A stretch of 49,592 bases of DNA. Origin: Acidipila sp. (GTDB lineage Bacteria; Acidobacteriota; Terriglobia; Acidiferrales; UBA7541). Below are positions 29,875-38,560 of the stretch, in pieces. How positions within the stretch are numbered: the stretch's first letter is position 1; each line of letters opens with the position of its first letter. The position numbers and the translations under genes were made by a program. The notes under the pieces are model-generated. The model saw only the letters and a list, made by a program, of their open reading frames with translations, was not told the DNA's origin and ran no database searches. Where the stretch lies: the NCBI GenBank assembly GCA_010365215.1, contig JAAFGT010000022.1, forward strand, positions 1 to 49,592, read 5' to 3'.

Positions 29875-31263
29875 ATGCCTCCCGCCTCCACACTTGCGAA
29901 GGTCGTGATTGTCGCGGAAAACGCGACGATGCGCCGCGATCTCGCCTCCGCTCTGCGCGATGAGTTCGAGCCTTTCGAAGCGGGGGACACCGCCGCCGCC
30001 ATTCCCTTACTCGAGGAACACCTCCCCGAGCTGCTTCTCTGGGATCTCCGGCCTCGCGCGTCCGGCTTGCGGGAATGCGTCGAGTTGCTCGACGCCCTCC
30101 GCGAGAGCGACCTCGACACTTTGGTCATCGTCCTCAGCACTGACGCCAAAAAAACAACCGCCCTGCAATTGATGGATGCCGGGGCTTACGATTATTTCGT
30201 ACAGCCGGTGGACCTCGATGTACTCCGGCCCATCCTCAACCGCGCCGTGGAAAAGTTGCGCACCGAGCGCGAAAATCGCATCCTGCGCGACCAGCTCCGC
30301 CGCAAGGACTCCCTGGGCGGCATCATCGGCGGCAGCGAGCCCATGCGCGGCGTGTTCGATTTGATTCGCCGCATTGCCGCCTCCACTACCACCGTTTGTA
30401 TCCGCGGCGAGAGCGGCACCGGCAAGGAACTCGTCGCCCACGCCATCCACGACCTCAGCGACCGCCGCACACGCCCTTTTGTCAGCGTCAATTGTGCGGC
30501 GCTGCCTGAATCACTGATGGAAGCGGAGCTTTTCGGCTATGAAAAAGGCGCGTTTACCGGCGCCGTGGGCACCAAAGAAGGCCGCATCGAGCTCGCTCAT
30601 CGCGGCACGCTGTTTTTGGATGAGATCGGTACTCTCACCCCCATCCTCCAAAGCAAGCTGCTGCGTATCCTGGAAGAGCACAGTCTCATCCGCCTCGGCG
30701 GCAAGCGCGTCATCCGCGTCGATTTTCGCCTGCTTACCGCCACCAATGAGGATCTCGAAGAGCTGGTCCGTCAGCAGCGCTTCCGCGAAGACCTGTACTA
30801 CCGCATTCACGTGATGCCCGTTTACCTGCCGTCGCTGCGCGAGCGTTTGGACGATATCCCCCTGCTCCTGGACCACTTCGTCCGGCTTTACTGCGCCGCC
30901 AACCACATGCTGCTCAAGTCCGTAAGCGACGACGCTATGCAAGTCCTCAAGCGCTATCCCTGGCCGGGAAACGTGCGGGAGCTGGAAAACACCGTCCAGC
31001 GCATCGTGCTGATGGCCGATGGGGACGCCATCACCGCCAAAGACCTTCCTAAGGACCTTGTCCAGGCCGCGGGGCGTGAGTCGCAAAACCGTTTCCGCAT
31101 CCCTGCCTCCGGCTTTCATCTGGAAAACGAAGTGCTCAACTTTGAGAAACGCTGGGTAGAAGCGGCCCTGCAACAAGCCGATGGCGTCAAGGCGAAAGCC
31201 GCTAAAATGCTCGGCGTCAACAAGGACAAGATGAAGTACCTCTGCCGCAAGCACGACCTCTAA
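29875..31263 (+). CDS. Sigma-54-dependent activator with an altered receiver domain
   Basis: The protein has 462 residues. The receiver (~8-125) keeps Asp57 (LLLWDLRPRASG) but has A14/E15 in place of the acidic pair and Gln110 in place of the conserved Lys (FVQPVD), so its control may be unusual. The AAA+ part has GESGTGKE, GAFTGA (sigma-54 contact), LFLDEIGTL and PWPGNVRELENT. A Fis-type helix-turn-helix ends the protein (KAAKMLGVNKDKMKYLCRKH). It has its own sigma-70 promoter. A -24/-12 promoter and dyad lie just downstream, in front of the small-peptide genes, which are its likely targets. Confidence 0.9.
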   Translation: MPPASTLAKVVIVAENATMRRDLASALRDEFEPFEAGDTAAAIPLLEEHLPELLLWDLRPRASGLRECVELLDALRESDLDTLVIVLSTDAKKTTALQLMDAGAYDYFVQPVDLDVLRPILNRAVEKLRTERENRILRDQLRRKDSLGGIIGGSEPMRGVFDLIRRIAASTTTVCIRGESGTGKELVAHAIHDLSDRRTRPFVSVNCAALPESLMEAELFGYEKGAFTGAVGTKEGRIELAHRGTLFLDEIGTLTPILQSKLLRILEEHSLIRLGGKRVIRVDFRLLTATNEDLEELVRQQRFREDLYYRIHVMPVYLPSLRERLDDIPLLLDHFVRLYCAANHMLLKSVSDDAMQVLKRYPWPGNVRELENTVQRIVLMADGDAITAKDLPKDLVQAAGRESQNRFRIPASGFHLENEVLNFEKRWVEAALQQADGVKAKAAKMLGVNKDKMKYLCRKHDL

Positions 31264-31430: not shown

Positions 31431-31447
31431 TTGGCCTTTCAGATGCA
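31431..31447 (+). promoter_or_regulatory. Candidate sigma-54 (-24/-12) promoter of the peptide genes
   Basis: TTGGC (31431-31435) and ATGCA (31443-31447) put the invariant GG and GC ten bases apart, as sigma-54 requires. The match to TTGGCACG-N4-TTGCA is partial at -24 (three inner bases differ). Transcription would start near 31458, 48 bases before the first peptide gene. Confidence 0.5.
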
Positions 31448-31505: not shown

Positions 31506-31655
31506 ATGCAAAAGAAAGGAATCGCACTCAAGAAGGGTAAGAAGCTTTCCGGCGCCAAGACGCTTAAGGGCGTCAGCAGCCTGCGCGGCGTAAGCACTCT
31601 TCGCGGCATCAACACCCTGCGCAGCATTAACACCACCCGCGCCACCAAGGCATAA
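31506..31655 (+). CDS. Small basic hexapeptide-repeat peptide 1
   Basis: The product has 49 residues. It opens MQKKGIALKKGKKLSGAKT, a Lys-rich leader-like part, then continues in six-residue units: LKGVSS, LRGVST, LRGINT, LRSINT, TRATKA. The core KKLSGAKTLK is shared in pattern with the two small genes that follow. GGAGGG lies eight bases before the ATG. It is preceded by the -24/-12 promoter and followed by a strong hairpin. I recognise no family. The gene context (M50 protease and HlyD proteins facing it) suggests an exported or processed peptide. Confidence 0.7.
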   Translation: MQKKGIALKKGKKLSGAKTLKGVSSLRGVSTLRGINTLRSINTTRATKA

Positions 31656-31666
31656 ACGGTTTTCGT

Positions 31667-31701
31667 CTCTGGCGAGGCCCGCCCATCCGGCCTCGCCAGA
31701 G
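31667..31701 (+). terminator. Hairpin between peptide genes 1 and 2
   Basis: A perfect 12-bp stem (CTCTGGCGAGGC/GCCTCGCCAGAG) has an 11-base loop. No T-run follows, so it may be a processing or stability element or a partial terminator rather than a full stop. Confidence 0.55.
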
Positions 31702-31829
31702 GCTATACTGCCCGCCAACTTCTAGCGGAAGGCAGCAATCCCATCACCCACGGCAGGACTTTAATTCCTGAGCTATACAGCGAAACAAGTGTTTTGTCCT
31801 CGTGAGTAGGGCTTAAAACAGGAGGCAAT

Positions 31830-31967
31830 ATGACAGCGAAGAAAAGCACCGCAAAGGGCACGGCAAAAAAGAGCAGCAAGCATTCCAGCAAGAAACTCGG
31901 CGGCAGCTCAGCGCTCAAGCACGTGTTGAATCTGAAGCACGTGTTGAATCTGAAAAAGGCGAGGTAA
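31830..31967 (+). CDS. Small basic hexapeptide-repeat peptide 2
   Basis: The product has 45 residues: a Lys/Ser/Thr-rich N-terminal half (MTAKKSTAKGTAKKSSKHSS), the core KKLGGSSALK, then two identical hexapeptides LKHVLN and a final LKKAR. The two hexapeptides are encoded by a perfect 18-bp tandem repeat. AGGAGG lies five bases before the ATG. It has the same plan as peptide 1 although the sequence is otherwise different, which argues that both are real and related. A strong terminator follows 80 bases downstream. Confidence 0.7.
   Translation: MTAKKSTAKGTAKKSSKHSSKKLGGSSALKHVLNLKHVLNLKKAR
31916..31951 (+). repeat. Perfect 18-bp tandem repeat inside peptide gene 2
   Basis: The 18-base unit CACGTGTTGAATCTGAAG, read from any phase, occurs twice in a row and encodes the LKHVLN hexapeptide twice. 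The identity at DNA level points to recent duplication. Confidence 0.85.
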
Positions 31968-32085: not shown

Positions 32086-32127
32086 CGAACACAGGAACTC
32101 TCACCTGTGCTTGGGGGAAGGGACCAA

Positions 32128-32256
32128 GTGGGAACCAGAAAAAAGGGCAGCCATATTCCGAAGAAATCGGTCAAAAAGAATCTGGGAACGGTGAAGACTC
32201 TCCGCAACATGGCCACCAAGAGTGAACTGCGAATCGCGCCGTCCATCGGCGAGTGA
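32128..32256 (+). CDS. Small basic peptide 3 of the same group
   Basis: The product has 42 residues, starting at GTG 32128 with AAGGGA five bases upstream. It reads MGTRKKGSHIPKKSVKK, then the core KNLGTVKTLRNMAT and an acidic-ended tail (SELRIAPSIGE). The core aligns without gaps to KKLSGAKTLKGV of peptide 1 and KKLGGSSALKHV of peptide 2, but there is only one hexapeptide unit. It lies after the terminator, so it needs read-through or its own promoter, which I could not identify. It converges on the M50 protease gene. Confidence 0.6.
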   Translation: MGTRKKGSHIPKKSVKKNLGTVKTLRNMATKSELRIAPSIGE

Positions 32257-32358: not shown

Positions 32359-34503
32359 TCACCAGATCAGCGATTTGATCCAGCGCCATCCGCCTCGCGC
32401 CCATTGCCAGGCCAGCGGCCGGCGTACTCCATAAATCTTTGCCGTTCCGGTCATGCCCTCGGTCAACGCGCCGTCGGTATTCGAAAACTCCAGAACCACC
32501 GCGAAGTAATTACTAAGTGGCCGGCCCGCGCGCTCCGGCATCTTCTCCGCGGTGACCGGTTCCTCAGCAGCCGCCGCGGGAAGCATGGCGCGCACGCGCC
32601 CGGAAAAAGTCCGGTAAGGATACGCGCGCACGTTCATTTTCACCGTGGCGTGTTCCGCAACGTCCTGCAGCTCCCAGTCGCGCACCAGCACGCGCGCGCG
32701 CGCCGTCGAGCGGTCCGCCAGAATGACGAACAGCTCGCCCTCCGCCAGGTACTCTCCGGCGCGCCGCTCCACTCCCGGCGTGGTCACCACTCCCGCGATA
32801 GGAGCGCGCAGCACCAGCGCGTCGCGTTTGCGCAGCGCCTCCGCCAATTCCACCTTCACCCGCTCGTATTCCGCGGAAAATTTCTGCGCCGCGGTCATGT
32901 CGCCCGCGCCGCTGGCGGCGAGCAGCCCTCGTTCGGCCAGAGCCTTCTCTTCGGTGAGGCTGGCGGCGCGCGCCTCCAGTTGCGCGTTATGCAGCACGCC
33001 CAGCACGGCGCCTGCTTCCACGCGCGCACCCTCGTGCACGCCTTCCTGCTGCAGCACGCCCGGGGCGATGGCGCGAACCTCCGCGCGCGCGCCCGGCTCC
33101 AGCACAAATTCGCTGCCGATTTTTGTAGCCGTGGGAGGCAGCACCAGCAGCAGCCCTGCCGCAGCCACGGCGACGGTCTGCCCGCGCGTCATTTTCCAGG
33201 CCATGAATTTCTCCTTGGCGTGCGGCCAGCCGATGCGGATCGCCGCGGTCACCTTGTTTACGCGTTTGCGCAGCATGAAGTAAAGCGCCGCCGCGGTAGC
33301 CACGTACCCCCAGTCTCCATACCAGCGCACAAACACATTCTTCATGAACGACCCAAAAACGTAGATGATCAGCGCGCTGTATAAGGACGCGCAGATTCCG
33401 TAGGTCAGGAAAATCCGCCGCTTGCGCTTGCTCACCGCCGGCAGTTCCACCTCTTGCCGAAGCACATATCTCTCCACCCACAGCTTCAGGTACTCGAAAG
33501 AATCTTCGCGCAGGTTGTCTACTTCCAGGTATTGCCCCAGCGCGTAGTAGCCGTCGTACTTCATTAGCGGGTTCAAATTGAAAACCAGCCCGGAGACGCC
33601 GGTCAGCAGCAGCAGCTTGTAACCCAGGTCTCCGGTGAACGAACCCGGCGGCGCGAAATACCACACCAGCGTAGCCAGCGCGCAGATCACCATCTCGATC
33701 CATAATCCCGCGAAGATGGTCCACTGGCGCTTGGAAGTCTTGTCGAAAACGTGCATGTCCGTGGTGTCGGTGAAAAACGCCGGCCCGAAATAGATGAGCA
33801 TGAATCCCATCTGCGGCACTTCGCCGCCGAAGTTTTTGCAGGTCAGCCCGTGGCCGAATTCGTGCACGCCGATCACCAGGAACAGCAGCACCCAGAAAAT
33901 CCAGAGGTCGTAAGCTGATTTATTGGAGAAGGTATAAAAAGCGATCGTATCCCGCTGGATGCGCGTCCAGTCGCTGGCCAGTATCACGCCCATCACGAAA
34001 AAGAGAAAAAGCGAGAAGATCACGAACCCGCGCGTGTACATCCAGCGCAGATACGGCAGTATGCGCTCCAGCGTTTCGTCCGGATTCCACGCCGAAAAAT
34101 GAATATAGAGCAGGCTCGAAGTGTTTACCCGTTCCCGCCGCTCCTCACGGATTTTTTCCAGGATGGCCAGGTTTCTTTCCGCCGCGCCGCGCTCCAGGAA
34201 ATTCGGATTGATGCTCTCGATGAATTCCGCCACATCTTCTTCCGTGACCGAACCCTCGCCATGCTCCTGGTTGATGGCCCCGGCGATTTCCGCGTGCGTG
34301 CGCGTGCCGTCGGCCAGCCGCAGCAGGGAGTATTCCAGCGGGCCGTAGCGCGCGAAGGTAAACAACTCGGGGATTTTAATGACGAAGCTGGTCTCGCCGG
34401 CCACCACCTGTTCGCTGATCTGCAGATCGGTGCGCAGCTTGGGGCGGCGCAGCCCTCGCGCCATGCTCACCGAAGTTTTCAGAGTGGTGGGGCCGAAGCG
34501 CAT
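32359..34503 (-). CDS. PqqD-like / M50 metalloprotease / HlyD fusion protein
   Basis: The protein has 714 residues. Residues ~20-105 look like a PqqD-type winged-helix peptide-binding domain (FARYGPLEYSLLRLADGTRT). The membrane protease core has HEFGH (214-218) and NPLMKYDGYY (Asp317), the zinc ligands of M50 site-2 proteases. After further membrane segments, a HlyD/biotinyl-lipoyl-like part (~450-690) carries APIAGVVTTPGVERRAGEYL. Such putative peptide zinc metalloproteases (for example YydH of Bacillus subtilis) occur in peptide-maturation clusters. It is the last gene of a three-gene minus-strand operon and faces the small-peptide genes, its possible substrates. Confidence 0.88.
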   Translation of the reverse strand: MRFGPTTLKTSVSMARGLRRPKLRTDLQISEQVVAGETSFVIKIPELFTFARYGPLEYSLLRLADGTRTHAEIAGAINQEHGEGSVTEEDVAEFIESINPNFLERGAAERNLAILEKIREERRERVNTSSLLYIHFSAWNPDETLERILPYLRWMYTRGFVIFSLFLFFVMGVILASDWTRIQRDTIAFYTFSNKSAYDLWIFWVLLFLVIGVHEFGHGLTCKNFGGEVPQMGFMLIYFGPAFFTDTTDMHVFDKTSKRQWTIFAGLWIEMVICALATLVWYFAPPGSFTGDLGYKLLLLTGVSGLVFNLNPLMKYDGYYALGQYLEVDNLREDSFEYLKLWVERYVLRQEVELPAVSKRKRRIFLTYGICASLYSALIIYVFGSFMKNVFVRWYGDWGYVATAAALYFMLRKRVNKVTAAIRIGWPHAKEKFMAWKMTRGQTVAVAAAGLLLVLPPTATKIGSEFVLEPGARAEVRAIAPGVLQQEGVHEGARVEAGAVLGVLHNAQLEARAASLTEEKALAERGLLAASGAGDMTAAQKFSAEYERVKVELAEALRKRDALVLRAPIAGVVTTPGVERRAGEYLAEGELFVILADRSTARARVLVRDWELQDVAEHATVKMNVRAYPYRTFSGRVRAMLPAAAAEEPVTAEKMPERAGRPLSNYFAVVLEFSNTDGALTEGMTGTAKIYGVRRPLAWQWARGGWRWIKSLIW

Positions 34504-34545: not shown

Positions 34546-35520
34546 TTAAGGAATGCGGGATCTGATCGAGCGCGGCGCCTCACTCCACTCGATCCGCACC
34601 GCCATTCCCGGGCGCAGATCCCGGCCCGCGCCGGCGAGCTGCGCAGTGACGTCATAAGTCCCGCTGGCCGCGTCCACGTTCGGGCTCACGCGACGAATTC
34701 GCGCTTCGAAGCTGCGCTGGGCGTCATTTGCCATCGCCACGTGCACGCGCTCGCCCATTAAGGGACGGCGCGCGGAAGCTTCCGGCACCTGAAAGCGCAC
34801 CAGCAGCGGCCCCAGCTGGCTGAGCCGAAAACATTTTTCATCTTTCAGGACGTTTTGGCCTTCGCGGATGTAGCGGCGCGCCACCACTCCCTGAAACGGT
34901 GCGCGAATGTGCGTCTTGTCGACCTCTAGCTCCAGAAGGCGCACTTCGGATTTGTTCTTGTCCACCGCCGCTTTCCAGCTTTCCAGGTCGAACGTCGAGC
35001 CTTTCGCCTTGAACTCGGCTTCTTCCAGATCTGCCTGGCTGTTGAGGCCGGCCTTTTGCATCTCTTCGGCGCGGCGCAGGCGGGCCTGCGAGGCCTTCAG
35101 CTCGGCCTCGTTGTATTTCACGTTACTTTCCGCCACGCGCAGGTCGGCTTTGGCTTTTTCGAGTTGCGCGAGAATCGTGCGGTCATCCAGGTGAGCAAGA
35201 ATCCCGCCCTTGGGCAGCGTCGCGCCTTCCTCCGCATTCACCGCCGTCACCGCGCCGTCGCGTTGCGCAAGCACATCCACTTCATGCTCCACGGAAAGCA
35301 CTCCCAGGATTTCACGAGAGGCGGTGTTGGATGCGTTGAACGAATTGTTCGGTGAGCTGTCGGGTGCGCGGCCGCCCGCATTTGGCGGCGCAGACATGCC
35401 CTTAGCTGCGGGCGCCGCAGGGCGATCGTCGCTCGCGCCGCCGCAGCCCGTCAACGCGAGCAGGGTTGCCGCGGTGAACGCCAGCGGCGAATTCGCCATC
35501 CATGTGCCGCACAGCTTCAT
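34546..35520 (-). CDS. HlyD-family periplasmic adaptor lipoprotein
   Basis: The protein has 324 residues. The lipoprotein signal ends in LLALTGC. A disordered Ala/Pro/Ser stretch follows, then the adaptor parts: VEHEVDVLAQRDGAVTAVNAEEG, a helical hairpin (~105-180), the return motif IRAPFQGVVARRYIREGQNV and a beta-barrel end (GTYDVTAQLAGAGRDLRPGM). It lies 42 bases before the M50 fusion gene and 51 after the GAF-HlyD gene, so three HlyD-type proteins are made together. No inner-membrane pump is encoded beside it. Confidence 0.88.
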   Translation of the reverse strand: MKLCGTWMANSPLAFTAATLLALTGCGGASDDRPAAPAAKGMSAPPNAGGRAPDSSPNNSFNASNTASREILGVLSVEHEVDVLAQRDGAVTAVNAEEGATLPKGGILAHLDDRTILAQLEKAKADLRVAESNVKYNEAELKASQARLRRAEEMQKAGLNSQADLEEAEFKAKGSTFDLESWKAAVDKNKSEVRLLELEVDKTHIRAPFQGVVARRYIREGQNVLKDEKCFRLSQLGPLLVRFQVPEASARRPLMGERVHVAMANDAQRSFEARIRRVSPNVDAASGTYDVTAQLAGAGRDLRPGMAVRIEWSEAPRSIRSRIP

Positions 35521-35571: not shown

Positions 35572-37989
35572 TCATGGCAGCCACGTCCACAACTTGCGCC
35601 ACGCCCAGCGCGCCGGATCGCGCAGAAAAACGTACCCCACCGGGTACCACCCGCTGCCGAACCACCCGCCCGTCGCGGTGATCTTTGCGCGCCCGACCAT
35701 TCCGGTGCGCGCAGCGCCAGTGGGATTTGGAAACAGCATGCGCACAAAGAAATACTGCTCGCCATCCGCCGCCACCGTTTGCGCCGCCACGCGCTCCACC
35801 GCACCGTGAAAACTCTCCGTGGGAAATGCGTTAAGTTTCAAAACTGCTGGCTGGCCGGTGCGCAGCAGGCTGACATCCGTTTCCGGAACCTGCACGTCGG
35901 CAGCCATGCGATCCTGCTCCACCACTTCGCAGAACCGCTCGCCGCGCGCCAGGAAGCGCCCTGCTTTCTCCTCCACCTTGGGTGTCACCACCACGCCGGC
36001 TATGGGCGCCACCAGGCGGGCGTGCGCCACCTTTTCACGATCGAGATTAACTTCGGCCTGCTCCATATCCATGCGCAGTCGGGCCTGCGCGGCAGCGCCA
36101 AATTCCTGGCGCGCTTCGGCCTGGGTCATATCGCGCCCGGCCATGGCCAGCCGTTCGGTGGCGCGCTCGAACGCTACGCGCGACTCGCTGTCGTCCAGCT
36201 CGGCCAGCGGCGTTCCCACTGCGACGACGTCGCCTTCGTGCACCAGGACGCGGCGCACCACGCCCTCCACTTCCGCACTGACTGCGCGGCGTTCCGCGGG
36301 CACCACCACGGAGCTGCCCGCCACACGCATTTTGATGGGCACAATGATCAGCGCTAGGATAGCCAAGCCAACCTTGCTGAGCAGCTCCACCCGCCTTCCC
36401 AGGCCCGCCTTGCGCAGCTTGTCCCGGGTTTTGGCCACTGGCGCCAGCACGCCCATCAACGGCAGCGACTGATATAGGCGCGCGTTGCGCAAGGCCACGC
36501 TGATCTGGCTGCCAAGGATAGCCAGTGTCTCGAGCTGGCTTTCTCCCAGAAAGTCCGCATCGCCGCTTTCGAGCGCGAGCACGCCCAGCGTGCCCTGGTC
36601 GTCGCGCAGCGGCAGCGCGTAAAAACCGTTGCGCTCCATCTCCGCGAGAAACGCCACCATCTGCGTACGCACCGCTTCGTGCGAAACCTTCCAGCCGGTG
36701 TCGTACTGGTCGGCGGAGACCGGCTCACTCTGCGTCGACACCCACTCCAGCAGATCGCGCAGCCGGGTCATCTCTTTTGTGCGCGGCACCTCGGCTTCTC
36801 CGGAAACTGCCGCCAGCAGAAATCGCGAGCGGTCCACCAGGCCGATGGAGCAGCGATCGAACGGCACCACCGTAGCCGCCTGGTGCACCACCGTGGTCAG
36901 AATATGATCGAGGTCCAGCGTCGAGGTGATCTGCTTGCTGATTTCCAGCAGCGCGTCCAGTTCATGCACCTTGCGCTCGGCGTCGAGCAGCCTCGCGTTG
37001 TGCAGCGCCAGCGCGGCCTGCTCCCCGATCGTGGTTACAAAAAAAAGATCGTCATCGTCGAAGGGCGTGCCGTCGAGCTTGTTCACCACTTCGATGACCC
37101 CGAGCACCTTCTCTTCCTCCAGCAGCGGCGCGGCGATGCACGTCACCAGCGTAAAGTCTTTCAACTGGCGCCGGCTCTCCAGCAGTGGCTCTTCCGCAGC
37201 GTCGGGCACCAGACGCGGCTGCCCGTCGCGCGCCACCGTTCCCAGAAATCCGTCGCCCAGCGCGAGCTTCCCATCTTCCAGCGTGGTCGGATCGTTGCCA
37301 TCCTGGTGCGCGAATTCAATGGTTTCGCCGTCTCCCGACACCAGCCACAGATTGCAGGCCTCCGCGCCCAGCAGATCGCGAATCTTTCCGGTGATGATCG
37401 GGGACAGGTCTTCCAATTCGAGAGTGGAATTAAAAATCCGGCTGATGTCATAGAGCGCAGTGAGCCGCTCCAGGGTTCCGAACTGCGTGTCGCGGTCCGC
37501 TTCCGATGCGCGCAGAGTGTCCAACGCCCGTCCGGTTAGCCGCGCCGCTTCCTCCACGAACGCGGCATCCTCGCCGGTAAATTCACCGCTCGCTTTGTTG
37601 AGCACTTCCAATACGCCCGCTTCCCCGGCGGCCGAAGGAATGGGGGCGTACAGCGCGTCAATGACGCGGTCGCGATGCGCCGGCTCCAGATGGATCAGCG
37701 GTTCTTTTTTTTCCGAAGCGCCGATGCGCCGCGCTCCTCCGGCCCCGGCCATCTCCGCCAGAATTCCGCCCGTACTCGTGCCGCTGGCCGGCTCAAACCT
37801 CTCGCCCGGCGCGAACCACTTTCCGCGGCAGCGCAGCGCGCCATCCTCTTTTTCGGGAAGCCACAGCAGGATTCCTCGCGCGTCCACACGCGTTCGCAAA
37901 GACGCGGAAAGAGCTTTGAAAATACTGTCGAGGTCGCGGCAGGAAAGATAAGCGGTGGCAAGCTCGTATAACGCCGGCAACCGCTCCAT
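35572..37989 (-). CDS. GAF-domain sensor fused to a HlyD-type adaptor
   Basis: The protein has 805 residues. Three GAF-like domains (~1-165, 170-340, 345-510) are recognised from repeated endings such as VLGVIEVVNKLDGTPF and TLGVLALESGDADF. A single membrane segment (GLAILALIIVPIKM) follows, then a HlyD adaptor (~565-780) with VEGVVRRVLVHEGDVVAVGTP and LVAPIAGVVVTPKVEEKAGR. It would sense cytoplasmic small molecules and act across the membrane in export. ATG 37989 has GGGAGGAATTG just upstream. A promoter (TTGACA, 17 bases, TAGCGT) precedes it. It heads the operon with the HlyD lipoprotein and the M50 fusion protein. Confidence 0.88.
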   Translation of the reverse strand: MERLPALYELATAYLSCRDLDSIFKALSASLRTRVDARGILLWLPEKEDGALRCRGKWFAPGERFEPASGTSTGGILAEMAGAGGARRIGASEKKEPLIHLEPAHRDRVIDALYAPIPSAAGEAGVLEVLNKASGEFTGEDAAFVEEAARLTGRALDTLRASEADRDTQFGTLERLTALYDISRIFNSTLELEDLSPIITGKIRDLLGAEACNLWLVSGDGETIEFAHQDGNDPTTLEDGKLALGDGFLGTVARDGQPRLVPDAAEEPLLESRRQLKDFTLVTCIAAPLLEEEKVLGVIEVVNKLDGTPFDDDDLFFVTTIGEQAALALHNARLLDAERKVHELDALLEISKQITSTLDLDHILTTVVHQAATVVPFDRCSIGLVDRSRFLLAAVSGEAEVPRTKEMTRLRDLLEWVSTQSEPVSADQYDTGWKVSHEAVRTQMVAFLAEMERNGFYALPLRDDQGTLGVLALESGDADFLGESQLETLAILGSQISVALRNARLYQSLPLMGVLAPVAKTRDKLRKAGLGRRVELLSKVGLAILALIIVPIKMRVAGSSVVVPAERRAVSAEVEGVVRRVLVHEGDVVAVGTPLAELDDSESRVAFERATERLAMAGRDMTQAEARQEFGAAAQARLRMDMEQAEVNLDREKVAHARLVAPIAGVVVTPKVEEKAGRFLARGERFCEVVEQDRMAADVQVPETDVSLLRTGQPAVLKLNAFPTESFHGAVERVAAQTVAADGEQYFFVRMLFPNPTGAARTGMVGRAKITATGGWFGSGWYPVGYVFLRDPARWAWRKLWTWLP

Positions 37990-38155: not shown

Positions 38156-38212
38156 TTGCGGCTTGCGTCGCGGCTTTTCTATTCAATTGGGCTATCGCCT
38201 GTGGGGCAGCCG

Positions 38213-38560
38213 GTGATTGAGAAGACACTCTACAAGGTTCGCGTTGTCGAAAAAGGCGTGGTCATCGACATTACCGGCGGCCTTCGCCTGGGCGAGTCGG
38301 AGCAGGCCTTCCGGCAGCAGGTGCAGGAGCTGCTCGACTCCGGCAAGCGCAATATCGCCGTAAATCTCGGCGCGGTAACTTTTGTGGACAGCTCGGGAAT
38401 CGGCGGCATGGTGCGGGCATTCACATCCGTCAACCGCGCCGGCGGCAAGCTGTTTTTTTTCGCTCCCAGCAAAATGATTCGGCAGACGCTGAAGATGGTC
38501 CGCCTCGATACCGTCCTGAGCCTTTACGACGACGAAGCCGCCGCCATCGCGGCCCTGTAG
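38213..38560 (+). CDS. STAS-domain anti-anti-sigma factor
   Basis: The protein has 115 residues from GTG 38213, a normal length for SpoIIAA-like proteins; a TTG at 38156 would add 19 residues. The strand order and the phosphorylatable serine motif FVDSSGIGGMVRAF are typical. Such proteins bind an anti-sigma kinase when unphosphorylated and so free a sigma factor. A candidate kinase domain in this window is the receiver-ATPase protein at 6186-7019, but the two are 31 kb apart and any link is speculation. Confidence 0.88.
   Translation: MIEKTLYKVRVVEKGVVIDITGGLRLGESEQAFRQQVQELLDSGKRNIAVNLGAVTFVDSSGIGGMVRAFTSVNRAGGKLFFFAPSKMIRQTLKMVRLDTVLSLYDDEAAAIAAL

Follow-up and report, generated by a model that had tools for sequence, protein, structure and literature searches.

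Introduction

Kamneva, Poudel & Ward (2015; PMC4452313) described, in other phyla, a type-I-secretion-like locus in which a GAF-HlyD protein, an M50-HlyD protein and an HlyD protein are encoded together with a secondary SecA (SecA_DEAD). A sensory or regulatory role for GAF-HlyD was already suggested there; Acidobacteria are unmentioned in that account and no cargo was identified. Our literature search returned no other description of the locus and no later account of it.

Here we examine a version of this locus in Acidipila sp. (GenBank assembly GCA_010365215.1, contig JAAFGT010000022.1, positions 1 to 49,592, a stretch of 49,592 nucleotides that we call the window). GAF-HlyD, M50-HlyD and HlyD are co-encoded in the window too, but this genome and the related genomes that carry the triad lack a secondary SecA_DEAD, and the triad is instead accompanied by short repeat peptides and a sigma-54 regulator. 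In the literature searched we found no account of a version that lacks SecA, is linked to sigma-54 and probably has short repeat peptides as its cargo.

Two other kinds of system invite comparison. RiPP maturation and export systems share with this locus an M50 protease (compare the daptide protease), a leader followed by a variable core and, putatively, a PqqD/RRE-like domain. The pairing of conserved leader and variable core that marks RiPP precursors is found in relatives of the window, as leader families A6 and A7 with repeat cores, but no linked modification enzyme occurs among the conserved neighbours, and the protease is here fused to an HlyD adaptor. LEPR-XLL proteins (NF012209) carry an N-terminal signal, lie beside SecA-type triads and have before the motif a basic stretch that recalls the KKGKKL leaders described below; they are thousands of residues long, whereas the putative cargo here has 26-191.

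Results

The triad and its two conserved neighbours occupy the following positions in the window.

29875-31263, forward strand: sigma-54-dependent NtrC-family response regulator, a conserved, convergent, downstream neighbour (Pfam/NCBIfam)
32359-34503, reverse strand: PqqD-M50-HlyD fusion (PqqD-like domain, M50 membrane protease, HlyD), 714 aa (motifs, Pfam, model, family profile)
34546-35520, reverse strand: HlyD lipoprotein, 324 aa, with lipobox LTGC and a hairpin-tip motif of the TolC-docking type (Pfam HlyD_D23, 4.5e-20)
35572-37989, reverse strand: GAF-GAF-GAF-TM-HlyD fusion, 805 aa, ATG start, the putative sensor/adaptor subunit (Pfam, AlphaFold, Foldseek, full-length conservation)
38204-38560, forward strand: STAS (anti-sigma antagonist-like) protein, a divergent neighbour (Pfam, 1.1e-14)

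The three triad genes are closely spaced, with about 50 bp between GAF-HlyD and HlyD and about 40 bp between HlyD and PqqD-M50-HlyD. Pfam searches of the GAF-HlyD protein found three N-terminal stretches that match GAF, with GAF (1e-35), GAF_2 (3e-35, in three stretches) and GAF_3 (1e-27) all over cut-off, and a C-terminus that matches HlyD_D23 (8e-20) and HlyD_3 (7e-17). Its score of 98.0 bits with the RND_mfp profile (curated cut-off 94.9) places the protein among membrane fusion proteins. The structure prediction that had been proposed for the 805-residue protein was run, and the AlphaFold model (mean pLDDT 88.5) contains three separate GAF folds, a helix at residues 530-549 that fits a membrane segment and, after it, a barrel-sandwich/hairpin adaptor. 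Foldseek matched the GAF part to the tandem-GAF structures of PDE5A, PDE2A and CyaB2 and the adaptor part to MacA and MexA. The architecture given in the original prediction, three GAF-like domains joined through one membrane segment to an HlyD adaptor, is therefore borne out by Pfam, AlphaFold and Foldseek alike.

In tandem GAF sensors such as CyaB2, PDE2A and PDE5A the fold is the same but the output is an enzyme, whereas here it is an adaptor. GAF A and GAF B of the window's protein retain NK..F...D from the cyclic-nucleotide signature (NKFDE), whose final E is absent; these residues are no proof of a ligand. Likewise, the barrel-sandwich, beta-barrel and hairpin fold is that of periplasmic adaptors of the MacA/AcrA/MexA type, but the N-terminal parts are here a cytoplasmic triple GAF or a polytopic protease, and there is no cognate pump.

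We considered whether a GAF gene and an HlyD gene had been joined artificially, by frameshift or assembly. This is ruled out because full-length, co-linear homologues of the same architecture (about 33-61% identity) occur in relatives, more than 25 genomes keeping the protein at full length; no point in favour of an artefact was found, and we regard its probability as negligible. Neither of the findings named beforehand as fatal to the prediction, a lack of GAF folds and a frameshift fusion, was thus made. Apparent fusions of triad genes of 1500-1670 aa in three genomes (G230, G316, G293) proved to be long open frames that overlap the GAF-HlyD gene in another frame.

The HlyD lipoprotein scores 145.5 bits with RND_mfp (cut-off 94.9). 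PqqD-M50-HlyD reaches only 53 bits with the same profile, but its match to Pfam HlyD_D23 is over cut-off (37 over 30). In 34 sequences of this family from many phyla, the motifs HExxH and NPL..DGY (NPxxDG type) are invariant, which identifies an M50 membrane protease; with the daptide M50 protease profile NF041824 (daptide_HExxH) the window's protein scores 182.6 bits, below the cut-off of 300. The PqqD profile matches the N-termini of 10 of 16 family members (best 5.5e-8) and matches the window's own protein weakly (E 0.016). A PqqD fold at this N-terminus is suggested by the model and the family profile; the Foldseek and VIA match lists for this protein concern its adaptor part and are silent on the PqqD and protease parts. 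The hairpin-tip motif, which we take to be of the TolC-docking type, is carried by 15 of 20 acidobacterial HlyD lipoproteins, compared with 1 of 30 GAF-HlyD proteins (there outside the hairpin) and 1 of 34 M50-HlyD proteins. Many TolC-type proteins are encoded elsewhere in the Acidipila genome.

Some loci differ in their HlyD or M50-HlyD genes. Loci L166 and L167 have no HlyD gene inside the triad, and an HlyD-type ORF lies beyond or overlaps the regulator gene. Other Acidobacteriota encode a second, longer M50-HlyD family of about 790-810 aa (L050:6520-8955, L051:10776-13139) close to an HD-GAF-GGDEF protein; the two are separated by a subtilase gene in L050.

The original prediction had also remarked that three HlyD-type proteins are encoded without a pump. 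This proved correct: none of ABC, RND, MFS and SecA genes recurs as a neighbour of the triad. The acidobacterial loci thus have no conserved ABC, RND or MFS transporter of the kind that marks a tripartite pump or type I secretion system, and their conserved neighbours include no ATPase and no peptide-modifying enzyme. A dedicated SecA elsewhere in the Acidipila genome was considered and rejected, since the alphaproteobacterial second SecA, used as query, matched only the canonical SecA (957 aa frame). Thirteen related triad genomes also have one SecA each, which in two of them shows in two pieces.

Among 26 acidobacterial loci, only the regulator and STAS families are widely shared besides the triad. 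Of these, 19 have the regulator, and in the remainder the sequence stops shortly beyond the M50 gene; for three split genomes the regulator was located on another contig. STAS homologues occur near the triad in many relatives, usually upstream, and may represent a partner-switching input. In L165, L166 and L175 the STAS gene is on the same strand as GAF-HlyD and immediately upstream of it.

Between the M50 gene and the regulator, acidobacterial loci always have a gap of 0.45-2 kb. This gap holds short ORFs of 26-191 codons on the regulator's strand with strong ribosome-binding sites, and 24 of 25 related loci have peptide genes there. In the window it contains the following features.

31432-31447, forward strand: sigma-54-like -24/-12 site TGGCCTTTCAGATGCA, 74 bp before peptide gene A; weak alone (p=0.038)
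31506-31655, forward strand: peptide gene A, 49 aa, MQKKGIALKKGKKLSGAKTLKGVSSLRGVSTLRGINTLRSINTTRATKA; Shine-Dalgarno GGAGG, 6-residue repeat, Lys-rich type
31830-31967, forward strand: peptide gene B, 45 aa; Shine-Dalgarno AGGAGG, Lys-rich leader, KKLGG, LKHVLN repeat
32107-32256, forward strand: possible peptide gene C, uncertain; GTG start, weak Shine-Dalgarno

Peptide gene C has neither a significant repeat nor a sigma-54 site, and the genome encodes peptide A only once. Gene A is closely followed, at 31665-31706, by a near-perfect inverted repeat (CTCTGGCGAGGC...GCCTCGCCAGAG), possibly a terminator or a processing hairpin. No Rfam RNA was detected in the gap, and a simple scan found no sigma-70 promoter in the region.

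The gap peptides show three leader types (QKKSLI..TKKA; V.IKLT..Q...I..ATG; and Lys-rich KKGKKL) followed by variable and mostly repetitive cores, such as (LQRGT)n, (APNKL)n, (SGKSL)n, (GLKAAK)n and (ARVTPH)n, with a period that is commonly 5, 6 or 12. They have no cysteine, are mostly strongly basic, and gave only low-complexity matches to known families. The 25 gaps contain 33 qualifying ORFs, whereas 200 dinucleotide shuffles gave 2.2 on average and never more than 6. The ORF filter was partly (charge, no Cys) set after examples had been seen; the independent tests therefore weigh more. Purifying selection is evident in two comparisons (dN/dS 0.109/0.856 for L042-L049 and 0.253/1.406 for L169-L177), together with third-position bias. 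Profiles of the two leader families A6 and A7 were searched across 297 Acidobacteriota genomes, about 18 of which carry the triad. This gave 14 strong matches (E<1e-8), seven per profile, all in triad genomes and half from genomes absent from the seed alignments. All 14 adjoin the sigma-54 regulator, including three at which the contig with the triad breaks off. No leader match was obtained in at least one triad genome (G271), and the window's peptides A-C fall outside both families. From these sequence comparisons, it is well supported that the peptide genes are real, tied to the machine and co-inherited with it.

Upstream of the peptide genes, a strict pattern found sigma-54 sites of the type TGGCAC-N5-TTGCA before 11 of 34 genes, compared with 0.15 in shuffles. 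A weighted score reached p<=0.01 before 21 of the 34, and 20 of these sites lie 56-89 bp upstream; overall, the promoters stand some 65-78 bp ahead of the genes. One locus has three paralogous peptide genes, each with its own sigma-54 site at -65 to -67. The window's site before peptide A sits where relatives have strong sites; a search with the exact consensus, allowing up to two mismatches, found no site near the window's operon, and in relatives the strict pattern gave no site ahead of GAF-HlyD. Apparently, then, the peptide genes are switched on by the neighbouring sigma-54 regulator, and the promoter pattern supports this well.

The original prediction had left the sigma-54 regulator unlinked to the operon and had overlooked the short peptide genes, which together explain the pump-less operon more specifically. 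Its idea that a GAF sensor controls the adaptor stands in so far as the protein can fairly be read as a cytoplasmic sensor joined to an adaptor and the pump is truly and generally absent, but the chimera is no one-off: it is of a known kind, since Kamneva et al. reported GAF-HlyD at the SecA-linked locus in 2015, and forms a conserved subunit of that locus.

To survey the distribution of the locus, we scanned one genome per species with an M50-HlyD alignment and then searched the neighbourhoods by profiles. The same gene set was found in Acidobacteria, Planctomycetes, Verrucomicrobia, Gemmatimonadetes, Bdellovibrionales/Oligoflexia, Proteobacteria and Nitrospira. A second, short SecA adjoins the triad in many Proteobacteria and in some Planctomycetes and Verrucomicrobia. 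Annotated alphaproteobacterial plasmids have the second SecA downstream of a giant surface-protein gene of more than 26 kb, and on one such plasmid SecA lies upstream of HlyD and TolC genes. In Planctomycetes and Proteobacteria a small DUF3467 protein is often encoded beside the triad (L079, L083, L085, L086, L096, L099 and others; L030-L032). Both versions coexist in one acidobacterial genome, G110, where L168 is a SecA-type locus and L176 a triad accompanied by the sigma-54 regulator; these are two distinct systems.

In Proteobacteria and Verrucomicrobia, SecA-type triads stand beside a second SecA and giant proteins whose N-termini open with LEPR-XLL (four of those tested are over the NF012209 cut-off). 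In Bdellovibrionales/Oligoflexia, triads adjoin proteins of 1229-2080 aa with a Lys-rich start followed by KKLEERIAPGM or KKLEDRIAPGM. An N-terminal LEPR-XLL or KKLEER/LEDR after a basic stretch is common to the large triad-side proteins (giant gene starts in L179-L181, L103 and L134; L063, L065 and L066) and may be a shared export signal. LEPR-XLL cargo was not found in the Acidipila genome, the best match there reaching 14.7 bits against a cut-off of 17; among this and 21 triad genomes, only G110 has a match over cut-off. These observations suggest, without proving it, that the two cargo classes are handled by a single type of leader-reading PqqD-M50-HlyD protein.

Discussion

We consider it probable that the triad is a leader-recognising, protease-coupled, three-adaptor peptide exporter, in which GAF-HlyD is the sensor/adaptor subunit and the short, cysteine-free, cationic repeat peptides encoded next door are the cargo; export, cleavage and GAF gating by the triad are what we infer. 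The NtrC-family regulator would activate the peptide genes from -24/-12 promoters, for which the sequence evidence is strong in relatives and weak in the window. Judging by its domain type and by the conservation of the leaders, the PqqD-like domain of M50-HlyD would bind the N-terminal leader, and the M50 site, whose catalytic motif is intact, would cut the leader from the core at the membrane. The HlyD domains of all three proteins may then form a periplasmic conduit, with the lipoprotein HlyD as the likely partner of a TolC from elsewhere in the genome, because it alone carries the docking tip; its motif is seen in the sequence, and the complex is predicted. Finally, the GAF domains could bind a small molecule in the cytoplasm and thereby gate or tune the machine.

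M50 proteases often take part in signalling, and the triad could be an envelope signalling device in which M50 together with GAF/STAS regulates sigma activity and the peptides are unexported regulators or nucleoid proteins. The STAS and sigma-54 neighbours are in keeping with this, as are the Lys-rich peptides, one of which is weakly like histone H1-like proteins (5e-7). We nevertheless find it unlikely: a system that transports nothing would hardly need three HlyD adaptors, one of which has a TolC-docking tip, and leaders that are conserved beside repetitive, diverging cores are as expected of cargo. It is likewise unlikely that the triad is a pared-down form of the SecA-linked giant-protein exporter, working with the housekeeping SecA on large cargo encoded elsewhere while the peptides are incidental or regulatory. 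That reading draws on the second SecA and the giant LEPR-XLL proteins that adjoin the same triad in Proteobacteria and Verrucomicrobia, on the one acidobacterium whose triad-side second SecA is accompanied by a LEPR-XLL protein, and on the KKLEER/KKLEDR proteins next to Bdellovibrionales/Oligoflexia triads. However, each tested triad genome has one SecA only, LEPR-XLL stays below cut-off in the Acidipila genome and in 20 other sigma-54-type triad genomes, with G110 as the sole match, and the strict link to sigma-54-driven peptides is left unexplained.

That GAF-HlyD is instead a regulated adaptor of a small-molecule RND, MFS or ABC pump encoded elsewhere seems to us improbable. Its RND_mfp-type score and the many TolC-type proteins of the genome would fit such a role, but no such pump is conserved in acidobacterial neighbourhoods, and the PqqD and M50 domains fused in its partner point to the handling of peptides or proteins.

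More broadly, and more tentatively than for the peptide exporter itself, we put forward that a widespread three-adaptor machine (PqqD, protease, triple GAF) might export by N-terminal leaders of the basic/LExR type. With a second SecA, its substrates would be giant LEPR-XLL proteins; in Acidobacteriota, without that SecA, they would be cationic repeat peptides under sigma-54 control, which would form a new class. When the SecA-linked GAF/M50/HlyD locus was described in 2015 it had no known cargo or function, and the acidobacterial version makes function directly testable, since the SecA-less locus is compact, its cargo genes are tiny, its sigma-54 promoters are recognisable and well-assembled genomes exist in other acidobacterial families. 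If true, the peptide-exporter reading would reveal a class of repeat peptides in bacteria that are too short to be picked up by usual gene calling. If the same PqqD-M50 protein reads both the cargo leader and the LEPR-XLL signal, one mechanism would serve the export of peptides and of giant adhesin-like proteins across several phyla.
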